A stretch of DNA of 36,418 bases from Burkholderiales bacterium (GTDB lineage: Bacteria > Pseudomonadota > Gammaproteobacteria > Burkholderiales > Burkholderiaceae_D), in NCBI GenBank assembly GCA_016200845.1, contig JACQDW010000076.1, positions 1-36,418 on the forward strand, in the 5' to 3' direction. Position 1 is the first letter of the stretch, and every line of letters starts with the position of its first letter. The notes under the pieces were generated by a model. That model was not told the origin of the DNA. It ran no database searches and was given only the letters and a program-made list of their open reading frames with translations. The position numbers and the translations under genes were made by a program. Below, one piece after another: positions 3,271 to 19,568 of the stretch.

Positions 3271-4809
3271 TCAAATCTGTGGATTCAGCTTTTCCACCTT
3301 GGAATACAATTTATTCAATGCCGAAATGTACGCCTTCGCCGAAGCCACGACAATGTCAGGATCAGCACCAACGCCATTCACTATCCGCCCAGCTTTACTT
3401 AAACGTATCGTCACCTCACCTTGCGACTGCGTTCCTGCTGTAATCGCGTTGATCGAGAACAACAACAATTCCGCTTCGCTACGCACTTCGGATTCAATCG
3501 CATTGACGATGGCATCGACCGCACCATTACCTTGAGCAATACAGGATTTTTCGCGATCACCTATGGTCATCACCACGACAGCCGACGAGCGCTCTCCCGT
3601 TTCAGAATGCTGGCTAATTGACACCAAGCGATAATGATCCGCGACATGTGAATGCTCTTCTTCCGCCACCACCGCCATAATATCTTCATCAAAAATCTCT
3701 GATTTTTTATCGGCAAGATCTTTAAAACGGGCAAATGCGGCATTGATTTCTACTTCAGACTCCAAAGCAATGCCCAATTCTTGCAAACGCTGTTTAAAGG
3801 CATTGCGACCCGAGAGCTTGCCGAGCACGATTTTATTAGCACTCCAGCCCACATCTTCTGCACGCATGATTTCATAGGTATTGCGCGCCTTCAAAATACC
3901 ATCTTGGTGAATGCCAGACGCATGCGCAAAGGCATTCGCACCCACAATCGCTTTATTCGGCTGCACCGCAAAGCCGGTAATTTGCGACACCATTTTGGAC
4001 GTTGCAACGATCTGACTCGCGTCAACGCCGATATCCAAGTTGAAATGATCTTTACGGGTGCGTACCGCCATCACGATTTCTTCCAAAGCTGTATTACCTG
4101 CACGCTCACCGAGGCCATTGATCGTACACTCAACTTGGCGCGCGCCGCCTATCATCACACCCGCGAGCGAATTGGCCACCGCCATTCCCAAATCATTATG
4201 GCAATGCACAGACCAGATCGCTTTATCAGAATTAGGAATCGTTTCGCGTAAACGCTTTAAAGTCGAGCCGTACAATTCCGGCACGCCGTAACCGACCGTA
4301 TCGGCAAAATTAATCGTCGTCGCACCTTCTTTGATGACGGCTTCAATCACGCGGCACAAAAAATCAAAATCAGACCGGCTCGCGTCTTCTGGACTAAATT
4401 CAATATCATCGGTAAACCGTCGCGCAAAGCGCACCGCCTGTATCGCTTGCTCCAAGACCTGATCCGGCGACATGCGCAATTTCATTTCCATGTGCAAAGG
4501 CGATGTCGCGATGAAGGTATGAATGCGCTTGCGACGCGCTTTCTCCAAGGCTTCTGCGGCACGTGAGATATCTCGGTCATTGGCGCGCGACAAGGAGCAA
4601 ATAATCGGTTCACGCACCGCTGCTGCAATCGCTTTGATCGATTCAAAATCACCGGGTGAGGCGGCAGCAAAACCGGCCTCGATCACGTCCACCTTCAAGC
4701 GCTCCAGCTGACGCGCAATCCGCACCTTTTCGTCGCGCGTCATTGATGCCCCGGGGGATTGTTCGCCATCACGCAAAGTGGTGTCGAAGATGATGAGTTG
4801 GTCTGCCAT
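3271..4809 (-). CDS. leuA: 2-isopropylmalate synthase
   Basis: LeuA condenses acetyl-CoA with 2-oxoisovalerate to give 2-isopropylmalate, the first committed step of leucine synthesis. About 512 residues. The N-terminal TIM barrel opens with [11 protein letters not shown] (catalytic R13, metal ligand D14) and carries the H202-C-H204-ND metal motif. The C-terminal ~150 residues form the LeuA allosteric domain (for example [17 protein letters not shown] and the glycine-rich [16 protein letters not shown] end), which normally mediates leucine feedback. The start is ATG 4809-4807 because GGAGG lies five bases upstream; an in-frame TTG at 4821 overlaps that ribosome site and is rejected. It is preceded by a Leu-rich leader ORF and a long structured leader, and followed by rpsO with its own promoter. 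Confidence 0.97.
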
Positions 4810-4880
4810 GTTTGCCTCCAAAATACCTGAATAAGATAAAAAATAAAGAATGTAAAAGGATAGAAAGGGTAAAACAGTGG

Positions 4881-4939
4881 ACTTGAATAGACTTTTCCCG
4901 CCCCGTGCAAGACGCGCATGGGTGAGACACTACTCAAGT
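4881..4939 (-). promoter_or_regulatory. Candidate leader hairpin between the leuA leader ORF and leuA
   Basis: In the minus-strand transcript, ACUUGAGUAG (4939-4930) can pair over all 10 positions with CUAUUCAAGU (4890-4881), using one G-U wobble. On the plus strand that position would be an A-C mismatch, so the pairing favours a role in leuA RNA. Nested inside, CCCAUGC (4922-4916) pairs with GCACGGG (4908-4902) except for one A-C mismatch. The region after the stem is pyrimidine-rich and G-poor, with U-runs only 30-40 nt further on. It is therefore not a textbook intrinsic terminator, and Rho-dependent attenuation is possible. No folding program was run. Confidence 0.45.
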
Positions 4940-4955
4940 TGTGGGGATAAGGGAT

Positions 4956-5108
4956 TTAGCGCGCGAGCGCTAGTAGATTCGCTAGAGTTAGCGATAACAG
5001 AGAAGCTAGGATAGCAGCAACTGGCAAGACCAACGACAAAAGCAGACCGGAGCGGTCTGCTTGAGTAAGTGCATTGTGTGCACCGGATGTCGTGGAAGTG
5101 AAATTCAT
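4956..5108 (-). CDS. Leu-rich leader peptide upstream of leuA (putative attenuator ORF)
   Basis: This 50-codon ORF runs ATG 5108-5106 to TAA 4958-4956. The last 27 residues before the final two (22-48) contain 13 leucines, including SLLSLTLANLLALAR at the end. Five of these are CTA and one is TTA, and two CTA codons are adjacent at residues 45-46. A promoter places the transcription start at or next to the A of the ATG, and no Shine-Dalgarno is present, so translation would be leaderless. It ends about 147 bases before leuA. By analogy with enterobacterial leu leader peptides, ribosome stalling at Leu codons would report low charged tRNA-Leu. It could instead be a small hydrophobic membrane peptide; position and codon choice favour attenuation. 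Confidence 0.65.
   Translation of the reverse strand: MNFTSTTSGAHNALTQADRSGLLLSLVLPVAAILASLLSLTLANLLALAR
4957..4994 (-). promoter_or_regulatory. Mutually exclusive hairpins inside the Leu-codon region
   Basis: Two perfect 6-bp hairpins lie in the Leu-rich part of the leader ORF: TCGCTA-ACTC-TAGCGA (4994-4979) and TAGCGC-TCGC-GCGCTA (4972-4957), minus-strand reading. The segments share CGCTA and TAGCG cores, so segments 1, 2, 3 and 4 can also pair 1:3 or 2:4. Overlapping CTA codons with alternative pairings is what a ribosome-position sensor would need. Function is inferred. Confidence 0.45.
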
Positions 5109-5115
5109 GGGAAAG

Positions 5116-5144
5116 ACTATAAGCGGCTTTCAAAAAAAGCGCAA
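5116..5144 (-). promoter_or_regulatory. Promoter of the leuA leader transcript
   Basis: Minus-strand TTGCGC (5144-5139) as -35, a 17-bp spacer, and TATAGT (5121-5116) as -10. Seven bases then separate the -10 from the A of the leader ATG at 5108, the first purine at the normal start distance. The transcript would therefore begin with the start codon. Confidence 0.6.
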
Positions 5145-5158
5145 GTGCCGTTCCTCAA

Positions 5159-6034
5159 TTAATTTTTAATGTCGGATGAGCTCGCATTTTCAGGCTCGCC
5201 ATGCACATCATCGGACAACTGCACCAGACTCACCGGGCGGCCACTGCGCCAGCGCCATAACAGCAAAACATAACCGGACAAGGCATAAATCACGAACAAA
5301 GAAAACAAGACTTTGGGAGGATCACTGACCACAGCGACATAGCCAAGCACGATCAAAAACGGCGCGATAAAAGGTACTGAGCGCTTCAGATTCAAATCTT
5401 TAAAGCTATAAAACGGCACATTGGTCACCATCGTTAAGCCCGCAAATAAAGCCACGCTCCAGGCAAACCAACGCACATCGACGCCCGCCACGCCCAAATC
5501 ATCCATCAGCAAAATAAAACCTGCAACCAAGGCCGCTGCTGCCGGACTAGGCAAGCCTTGAAAATATCGTTTATCGACCACCGTGATATTGGCATTAAAT
5601 CGCGCCAGGCGCAGCGCAGCGCCCGCGCAGTACACAAAGGCCGCCAGCCAGCCCCATTTACCCATGCCCTTCAAGGCCCATTCATAGGCGATAAGCGCGG
5701 GAGCAACACCAAACGAAACCATATCGGACAAACTATCATACTGAGCGCCAAATTCACTCTGCGTATTGGTCATCCGCGCCACCCGGCCATCGAGACTATC
5801 CAAGACCATCGCCACAAAAATCGCCAAACCGGAATGTTCAAATTTTTGGTTCATCGCCATGACAATGGCATAAAAACCGCAAAACAAGGCGGCAGTGGTA
5901 AAAGCATTGGGGAGTAAATAAATGCCGCGCGATGGCTTGACTGCCGCGCCTTGAAGTTCGGTGCTGTTTTTTCTCGCACCACGTGGGAACAACTTAAAAC
6001 TACCCTTGGGCTTACGATTTTTTGGTGGAGTCAT
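5159..6034 (-). CDS. pssA: CDP-diacylglycerol--serine O-phosphatidyltransferase
   Basis: PssA makes phosphatidylserine from CDP-diacylglycerol and serine in the inner membrane, on the way to phosphatidylethanolamine. The CDP-alcohol phosphotransferase signature is intact: D-G-x2-A-R-x8-G-x3-D-x3-D, beginning DGRVAR and ending GAQYDSLSD. Several hydrophobic segments follow, for example WLAAFVYCAGAALRLARF, AAALVAGFILLM and FLIVLGYVAVV. The ATG at 6034 (MTPPKNRKPKG) is preferred. An in-frame GTG at 6064 would add ten residues, and neither has a good Shine-Dalgarno, so the start is uncertain. In many Burkholderiales pssA follows psd and ilvC and precedes leuA. Here acs with a terminator lies upstream instead, so the usual ilv/psd part is not in this position. 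Confidence 0.94.
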   Translation of the reverse strand: MTPPKNRKPKGSFKLFPRGARKNSTELQGAAVKPSRGIYLLPNAFTTAALFCGFYAIVMAMNQKFEHSGLAIFVAMVLDSLDGRVARMTNTQSEFGAQYDSLSDMVSFGVAPALIAYEWALKGMGKWGWLAAFVYCAGAALRLARFNANITVVDKRYFQGLPSPAAAALVAGFILLMDDLGVAGVDVRWFAWSVALFAGLTMVTNVPFYSFKDLNLKRSVPFIAPFLIVLGYVAVVSDPPKVLFSLFVIYALSGYVLLLWRWRSGRPVSLVQLSDDVHGEPENASSSDIKN

Positions 6035-6161
6035 ACTGAATCTAGAGTCTGAAATGAAGGTCACTGGCGGTTAAACATACCCTGCAAAATTACCCGCTCA
6101 AGTGAAGAATGACGCCAAGTATAACCGCGAAAGCAGCAACCGAGAATCTTTTAGGCCACAC

Positions 6162-18545: not shown

Positions 18546-19568
18546 TTACCGTTGCAAGCGCGCCAGAGCAATCGCTTCTTGCATGCTTGGGCTAAAGGTG
18601 CCACTGGTGATTTCGCCCTCGCCCTGAGTGGCAATAATTTTTTGATGGGCGCGCAAGATACCGCCTTTTTCACGCAGAATCAGGCCTAAGAATTGCGCAG
18701 TCTGGCCTTGTTCTAACAAAGCTTGTTTGCCGACGAAATCACGCTCGGCAACCAGATCAATCGTCCACGCCAAACCTGCGTTCAATGGATTGACGGTTTC
18801 ATCCATATCCTGACCGTACAAATTCATACCGGCTTCCAAACGCAAAGTATCACGTGCACCGAGACCAGCAGGCTTCACGCCAGCAGCCGCTAAGGCATTC
18901 CATAAATCCGTCACACGCTCAACCGAAACGGCGATTTCAAAACCGTCTTCACCGGTGTAACCAGTACGCGCTACCATCACTTCACCGAAGCTGGTGTTTT
19001 CTACGATGACGGCGTTAAATGGTTTGATGTCAGCAGTCGCTGCTTTGGTTTCTGGCAAAACTTCCCAGGCTTTAGCGCGGGCATTCGGACCTTGTACAGC
19101 GATCAGGCCATAAGCATTCGCGCCATCGCGACGCTGCGTGATGGTGATGCCAGCATTGGTCGCTGCGTTATGCGCATTCATCCATGCCACGTCTTTTTCT
19201 GCCGTGCCGGCGTTAACCACCAGACGGAACCAGCTTTCGTTCATAAAGTAGATGATCAGATCGTCGATCACTGTGCCTTCAGGTTTTAACATGGCGGAAT
19301 ACAAAGCCTTGCCCGGCACTTGCAGTTTATCGACATTGTTAGCAACCAGACCGCGCAAGAAGCTGCGGACGTTTTCGCCTTTCAGATCGACCACGCACAT
19401 ATGGGAGACGTCGAACATGCCGACGTCGGTGCGCACGGCGTGATGTTCTTCGATTTGGGAGCCATAGTTGACTGGCATATCCCAACCGCCGAAATCAACC
19501 ATTTTTGCGCCAGCCGCACGATGGGCTGCATTTAGGGGAGTAACTTTTAAGCTAGTAGCTTGCGTCAT
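18546..19568 (-). CDS. gcvT: Aminomethyltransferase (T protein), C-terminus apparently truncated
   Basis: GcvT takes the aminomethyl group from GcvH, releases ammonia and forms 5,10-methylene-tetrahydrofolate. 340 residues are encoded. The folate-binding body looks complete: [44 protein letters not shown] and [22 protein letters not shown]. The C-terminal domain breaks off at [19 protein letters not shown]. Family members such as E. coli GcvT (364 residues) continue for about 30 more and end in FVRNGKAVA. In the +1 frame the DNA right after the break reads NGKVLVA-stop, a remnant of that end, so an internal deletion of about 80 bases with a frameshift is likely. The start ATG 19568 follows GAGG at seven bases. 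Confidence 0.9.

Follow-up and report, generated by a model that had tools for sequence, protein, structure and literature searches.

The window analysed here is a stretch of 36,418 nucleotides from a Burkholderiales bacterium, and it carries a short leucine-rich reading frame upstream of leuA (Table 1). A first-pass annotation had taken this frame for a probable attenuation peptide of an unusual type. The locus raises the question of whether the frame senses leucine on behalf of leuA and, if it does, by what means leuA would be controlled.

Table 1. Features of the leader locus, with positions in the window
Feature	Coordinates	Strand	Remarks
pssA-like gene, CDP-alcohol phosphatidyltransferase, upstream of leader	5159..6064	minus	
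-35 element TTGCGC	5139..5144	minus	over 85 leaders, TTGC conserved at 99-100% per position; spacer of 17 bp in 84/85
-10 element TATAGT	5116..5121	minus	seven bases upstream of the A of ATG; 17 bp from TTGCGC
Leader ORF, Leu-rich, putatively leaderless	4956..5108	minus (5108..4956)	50 codons, 14 Leu, 5 CTA; between pssA-like gene and leuA
Hairpin H1 inside the ORF	5040..5062	minus	3' arm = first Leu codons of the run
Hairpin H2, last CTA codon to stop codon	4957..4972	minus	TAGCGC-TCGC-GCGCTA
C-rich box CCCCACAACTTGAGTAGT (CCCACAA-like)	4929..4946	minus	candidate rut or protein site
Stem-loop H3	4881..4939	minus	ACTTGAGTAG..CACCC-loop-GGGCGGG..CTATTCAAGT; not followed by a T tract
leuA Shine-Dalgarno GGAGG	4815..4819	minus	
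leuA, 2-isopropylmalate synthase, 512 aa	3271..4809	minus	Pfam HMGL-like + LeuA_dimer

The leader frame and its relatives

The frame was found largely as the first-pass annotation had described it, and it lies on the minus strand. Thirteen of the fourteen leucines fall within residues 22-48 of the 50-codon frame, the five CTA codons are codons 34, 40, 42, 45 and 46 with the last two adjacent to each other, and 146 bases separate the leader stop from the leuA ATG at 4809, where about 147 had been stated. When the 349-nt intergenic sequence was dinucleotide-shuffled 2000 times and read on one strand, an ATG-initiated frame with 13 leucines per 27 residues never arose, and a frame with at least ten arose in 17 of the 2000. 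The peptide has a hydrophobic C-terminal half and no match in Pfam.

Relatives were taken from the best 80 of 584 confirmed loci of a leuA search, in which 43 leaders were picked first, nine of the window's type and 34 of another type; the latter, Burkholderia-like and Comamonadaceae-like, were selected by eye. Two further leaders (L069 and L072) and a doubtful one (L016) were recognised later, which brings the total to 45 or 46, and these are absent from the scoring of the 43. By our own count, 45 of the best 80 leuA loci have a Leu-rich leader whose ATG stands near a promoter-like box, and a clear leader was not seen in the other 35 of the best 80 (584 confirmed). In many of these 35, fewer than 90 nt separate the end of a pssA-like frame from leuA; in some, leuA comes after another gene, and one locus is incomplete. 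The Paraburkholderia locus L023 has the promoter and the ATG, followed by an 11-codon frame that stops before any Leu run, and may represent a degenerate leader.

A covariance model (R1) of the ORF end and the downstream RNA, trained on ten aligned window-type leaders including that of the window, gave 95 matches in 94 of 392 genomes of the family, covering 17 of 44 genera. Of these matches, 94 lie upstream of leuA (the window's own genome included), the exception being a second, weak match in genome G276. The set of 85 window-type leaders used throughout consists of the window and 84 of the 94 fetched R1 loci, namely those with an automatically matched leuA start; nine leuA-linked R1 loci (L163, L190, L192, L193, L194, L196, L198, L199 and L202) were recognised afterwards and are not counted among the 85. 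An additional short frame lies between leader and leuA in L190. In L198 and L199, by reading of the sequence, the leader element precedes a long, different LeuA type, and it appears that either the element moved or it stayed while the gene was replaced. At the level of the order, R1 matched 25 of 300 genomes. Nineteen of the 21 matches outside four already-seen genomes were fetched, together with one genome from a search with a 17-base box pattern, and 19 of the 20 fetched loci are at leuA and represent eight families other than that of the window. Endings such as LLLRPAR are frequent in these order-level leaders.

Leucine makes up 27.6% of the residues of the 85 window-type leaders, and CTA accounts for 259 of their 724 Leu codons (36%) as compared with 20 of 816 (2.5%) in the 5' parts of leuA. 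The 34 other-type leaders have CTA at 81 of 189 Leu codons, against 0 of 35 in the available leuA 5' parts. The 84 relatives of the window leader range in length from 21 to 66 aa. Relatives in group g5 keep hardly anything besides the Leu run and the peptide end, while the N-terminus is partly kept within group g24 and within the long-leader group; recurrent C-termini after the Leu run are of the form ..LLALAR, LLVR or LLR. The Leu codons and the frame, whose conservation in relatives the annotation had made its test, were found to recur, together with the CTA enrichment, the ATG and its spacing from the promoter. The length, which the annotation had found to exceed that of the enterobacterial leuL peptides, is a trait of a subset, as 68 of the 84 relatives have only 24-33 codons.

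Judged by this comparison of sequences, the frame is very probably a leucine leader peptide, and the CTA enrichment, being a signal at the level of codons, suggests that it serves regulation and not a protein function. The leu leader of Salmonella, too, makes regulatory use of CUA. We infer that charged tRNA-Leu would be sensed through ribosome stalling, for which the CTA enrichment provides indirect support.

Promoter spacing and the leader start

The leader promoter was not listed by a sigma-70 scan of the window, and TTGCGC has three of the six consensus bases. The promoter is nevertheless credible because it is conserved, with TTGC and the 17-bp spacer recurring in the relatives. When 41 offsets were scanned, the best TATAAT-like hexamer was found 6-9 nt before the ATG in all 85 window-type leaders, a scoring bonus having favoured leader starts close to a -10 box; in the 57 of the 85 that have a single in-frame ATG, the best hexamer lies at 6-8 nt in every case. 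Before the leuA genes of the window-type and other-type loci, the best hexamer is scattered over 0 to 40 nt. Shine-Dalgarno runs of at least 4 nt precede none of the 85 window-type leader ATGs as compared with all 85 of their leuA genes. Both the distance of seven bases between TATAGT and the A of the ATG and the lack of a Shine-Dalgarno sequence had been pointed out in the first-pass annotation, and both hold.

A similar arrangement is present in the 34 other-type leaders, where the hexamer lies at 6-8 nt in 32, at 10 nt in one and at 22 nt in one, and a Shine-Dalgarno run of 4 occurs in five. At the order level, 18 of 19 leuA-linked loci gave a start preceded at 6-9 nt by a -10-like hexamer, in a search designed to find this very spacing; the hexamers of L214 and L218 are weak, and in L224 the close promoter-ATG arrangement is visible by eye. 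The leader transcript is very likely leaderless, its start at the A of the ATG being suggested by the promoter spacing.

RNA elements and terminators

H2, the box and H3 recur in the window-type leaders, and a further hairpin, H1, lies inside the frame. H1 was predicted in all four groups that were folded (two of the window's genus, g5 and g24; one consensus fold per group), with some compensatory changes and some sequences unpaired. A scan called H1 (5062-5040) a strong, terminator-like site; its place is within the frame, where the Leu run begins, and it was rejected as a terminator. H2 is nearly invariant and shows little covariation, its three modelled pairs being formed in 97.9% of cells over 79 distinct sequences.

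The motif CC[AC]CAA occurs between the stop codon and leuA in 80 of the 85 window-type leaders as compared with 10.5% of shuffled gaps and two of the 34 other-type leaders, and its recurrence among R1 matches, those of the order level included, is partly by construction as R1 contains the box. In 77 of the 80 box-bearing leaders, the box starts 14-24 nt past the first base of the stop codon. A 17-base box pattern allowing at most one mismatch gave 13 matches in 31 genomes, compared with 15 for a backward control; all 13 are at leuA, twelve of them coinciding with R1 matches and the other being in genome G400.

The support for H3 comes from changes on both sides of its stem, which were observed in all ten modelled apical pairs, the lower stem being variable outside the genus. 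In H2 and H3 together, both partners had changed in 88 cells, where shuffles gave 26. Over the 79 distinct sequences, 92.5% of the cells of the modelled structure are paired, as compared with 82.2% for shuffles and 36-46% for slid controls; the underlying alignment (A3) was fitted to the model, which favours high pairing, and relatedness alone can exceed such shuffles. A3 combines the window with 79 of the 94 loci, 80 sources in all; the 15 omitted loci are mostly near-duplicates and include L163 and L203. The 80 nt that follow the box have weak energy z-scores (a mean of -1.3 and a median of -1.0 over 88 of 94 loci, the set omitting five loci with no box match and L203, which is not at leuA). 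The case for H3 as a conserved stem-loop rests on covariation in the aligned sequences and not on stability. A pairing of GTAGT after the box with Leu codons, noticed by eye, is possible in the window (CTACT/AGTAG) and absent in g5, and was dropped.

No Rfam family matched the window leader at the gathering threshold or at E values up to 5. Among 12 relatives searched at gathering, the only match was the ilvH RNA (RF02993), at two loci and away from the leader (L060:19-86 and L036:228-295); it lies about 3 kb upstream of a leader-bearing leuA, and these two loci hold two different cis-regulatory RNAs a few kilobases apart. Elsewhere in the window, tandem glycine riboswitch aptamers (RF00504, 19906-19654 on the minus strand) are located upstream of a gcvT-like ORF (19568..18546), which is followed by a gcvP-like ORF, both names being given by eye; this arrangement is ordinary.

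No intrinsic terminator was found in the 85 window-type leaders by a strict scan, where 2.2 were expected from shuffles, nor by a relaxed scan run without a shuffled control, and the relaxed scan found one in the 19 order-level loci. Other-type leaders have a terminator in 18 of 34 cases by the strict scan (3.6 expected by chance) and in 21 of 34 by the relaxed one, mostly in the Comamonadaceae-like leaders. In several of the latter, the terminator 5' arm GCCCGT is complementary, by eye, to ACGGGC of the last leader codons, and these terminator-bearing leaders would be cases of classical attenuation. Of the 43 leaders scored first, nine have the box only, 21 a terminator only, 13 neither, and none has both. 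An intrinsic terminator in the window was rejected as the scans were negative and the terminator-like site at 4666-4650 falls within leuA. The attenuation peptide of the first-pass annotation is upheld by comparison as a leucine leader; the window sequence gives no sign of attenuation by an intrinsic terminator. A third architecture was observed in five Burkholderia, Paraburkholderia and Caballeronia loci (L028, L030, L034, L054 and L067), which have a promoter near the ATG and a GC-rich stem, and neither a CCC[AC]CAA box nor a T-tract terminator.

Proposed control of leuA and known systems

Sequence comparison establishes the leader with its Leu and CTA content, the promoter-ATG spacing without a Shine-Dalgarno sequence, the lack of a terminator-like site, the box and H3. 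Our overall explanation, to which we give a somewhat better than even chance, is that a leucine-responsive leader controls leuA, with Rho being held off by a stalled ribosome. The RNA would begin at the A of the leader ATG, so that ribosomes would load on its 5' end in the absence of a Shine-Dalgarno sequence. When charged tRNA-Leu is scarce, the ribosome would stall on the Leu run, above all at its rare CUA codons; with ample leucine, it would reach the stop codon and depart. Its release would expose the CCCACAA box, a candidate rut site 3' of the stop codon, H3 would delay RNA polymerase, and Rho would terminate transcription before leuA. A stalled ribosome would shield the RNA or the polymerase from Rho, and leuA would be transcribed. 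The gene is probably switched on when leucine is short. The Rho step itself, which we prefer, stands at about an even chance.

C exceeds G between the stop codon and leuA in 84 of the 85 window-type leaders, and the first 30 nt past the stop contain 41% C and 12% G. This C-richness is unspecific because it is shared by the other-type leaders (42% C and 20% G past the stop, C exceeding G in 30 of 34), of which 21 carry a terminator. Compared with all stretches of the 36-kb window, the best 78-nt stretch of the leader region reaches the 88th percentile for C minus G, the 91st for C/G and the 94th for YC steps, and is thus not extreme even as the best of many placements. The position of the box also counts against our explanation, since a box that begins 14-24 nt past the stop would lie outside the RNA covered by a ribosome stalled in the Leu run, as do the 13 of 43 leaders with neither box nor terminator and the 35 of the best 80 loci with no clear leader. 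The leuA Shine-Dalgarno sequence is predicted to be mostly paired in every state, which leaves room for translational control. Whether the locus is a leucine switch in which the leaderless CUA-rich leader, the fixed CCCACAA box and the covarying hairpin replace an intrinsic terminator in a Rho- or protein-dependent manner, with the Comamonadaceae-like terminator being an alternative solution on the same leader, and whether such a switch is undescribed, we regard as an evenly balanced proposition.

The terminators of the Comamonadaceae-like relatives raise the alternative that classical ribosome-mediated attenuation operates in the window as well, H3 being a terminator that the scans overlooked. 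A GC hairpin with a T tract is present in 21 of the 34 other-type leaders, the GCCCGT/ACGGGC complementarity recurs in several, and the apical ATGC..GCA/GGG element of H3 resembles, by eye, the Comamonadaceae-like terminator. However, a hairpin with a T tract was found in none of the 85 window-type leaders and in one of 19 order-level loci, and H3 of the window is followed by CCACTG rather than a T run, which leaves this alternative very unlikely. Control might also be exerted on translation, with the leuA ribosome-binding site becoming more or less exposed as the leader ribosome changes position. Such control has been proposed for the actinobacterial LEU element, in which the Leu codon run is described as pairing with the leuA Shine-Dalgarno sequence (PMC1262725). 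The leader pairs with the Shine-Dalgarno region in two of four group folds (g5 and the long-leader group), and this sequence is mostly paired in all predicted states (mean unpaired 0.28-0.37). On the other hand, its predicted exposure in the 85 window-type leaders is 0.37 with the ribosome at the stop codon against 0.35 and 0.36 with the ribosome stalled, and a strong switch in either direction was seen in none of them and in two of 33 other-type leaders. As a stalled ribosome and one at the stop codon give the same predicted exposure, a ribosome-driven switch is not supported, and we consider it quite unlikely.

The box and H3 could instead form the site of a dedicated protein or a DNA-binding regulator, with the leader peptide merely modulating access. 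The frequency of CC[AC]CAA in window-type leaders (80 of 85, compared with 10.5% of shuffled gaps) beside a covarying hairpin would fit such a site, but its recurrence is in part by construction, and the 13 matches of the 17-base pattern in 31 genomes all lie at leuA and reveal no regulon; this explanation seems unlikely. That the frame encodes a functional small membrane protein, with its Leu richness reflecting a transmembrane helix, is extremely improbable: the hydrophobic C-terminal half and the partly kept N-terminal residues within g24 and the long-leader group agree with it, whereas the range of 21-66 aa, the little that g5 keeps besides the Leu run and the end, the missing Pfam match and the position of 94 of 95 R1 matches before leuA speak against it, and the CTA enrichment is a signal at the codon and not the protein level.

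If this reading is true, leaderless translation would be a long-standing means of ribosome loading on betaproteobacterial leucine leaders. Natural pairs of related leaders, one member having an intrinsic terminator and the other none, can be used to test whether Rho or another factor is able to replace the terminator in amino-acid attenuation. The leader also adds a conserved cis-regulatory element with no match in Rfam.

The enterobacterial leu leader has an intrinsic terminator and a ribosome site. Window-type leaders share with enterobacterial leuL a leader with Leu codons before leuA, and have neither its terminator nor its ribosome site. In E. coli, leuL encodes a 28-aa peptide with four Leu (PMC6123439). 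Closer in design is leuL1 of Streptomyces lividans, described as a leaderless, Leu-rich leader of 15 aa before leuA that has no typical Rho-independent terminator (PMC8079986), and the LEU element of actinobacteria is described as a pseudoknot with a base stem that pairs the Leu run with the leuA Shine-Dalgarno sequence (PMC1262725). The window-type leaders resemble both in being Leu-rich, putatively leaderless and upstream of leuA with no typical terminator, as far as these two systems are described. Unlike the LEU element, they occur in another phylum and have the CCCACAA box and H3, and no ribosome-dependent Shine-Dalgarno switch is predicted for them by a model that excludes pseudoknots. 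In Corynebacterium glutamicum, the 5' end of the ilvB leader RNA is reported one nucleotide from the start codon (PMC11857589) and a leader containing a run of four Leu codons has been predicted for leuA (PMC4046766); the ilvB leader differs in its reported terminator hairpin and competing hairpins and belongs to another phylum.

Among proteobacteria, Sinorhizobium meliloti trpL is an attenuator whose RNA is reported to start with the leader peptide's own ATG (PMC7298713). It has the leaderless design that is predicted for the window-type leaders and differs, by the same account, in responding to tryptophan, in preceding trpE(G), in its 14-aa peptide and in belonging to an alphaproteobacterium. 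A betaproteobacterial precedent for the Rho step is CruR of Bordetella pertussis, where a ribosome stalled on an upstream ORF is reported to prevent Rho-dependent termination before the next gene (PMC9426467); there, a nascent protein with a RAPP motif is described as sensing copper, and no codon-based sensing of an amino acid is involved. Leaderless mRNAs have been mapped in Burkholderia cenocepacia and Cupriavidus metallidurans (PMC4603805, PMC7563307), and in term searches 'leuA' and 'leader peptide' were absent from the main texts of both reports. Our literature search recognised no leaderless leucine leader in betaproteobacteria, and a published description may exist. The unusual type claimed by the first-pass annotation stands in part: leaderless leader peptides are already known elsewhere, and the 50-codon length is found in a subset of the leaders.
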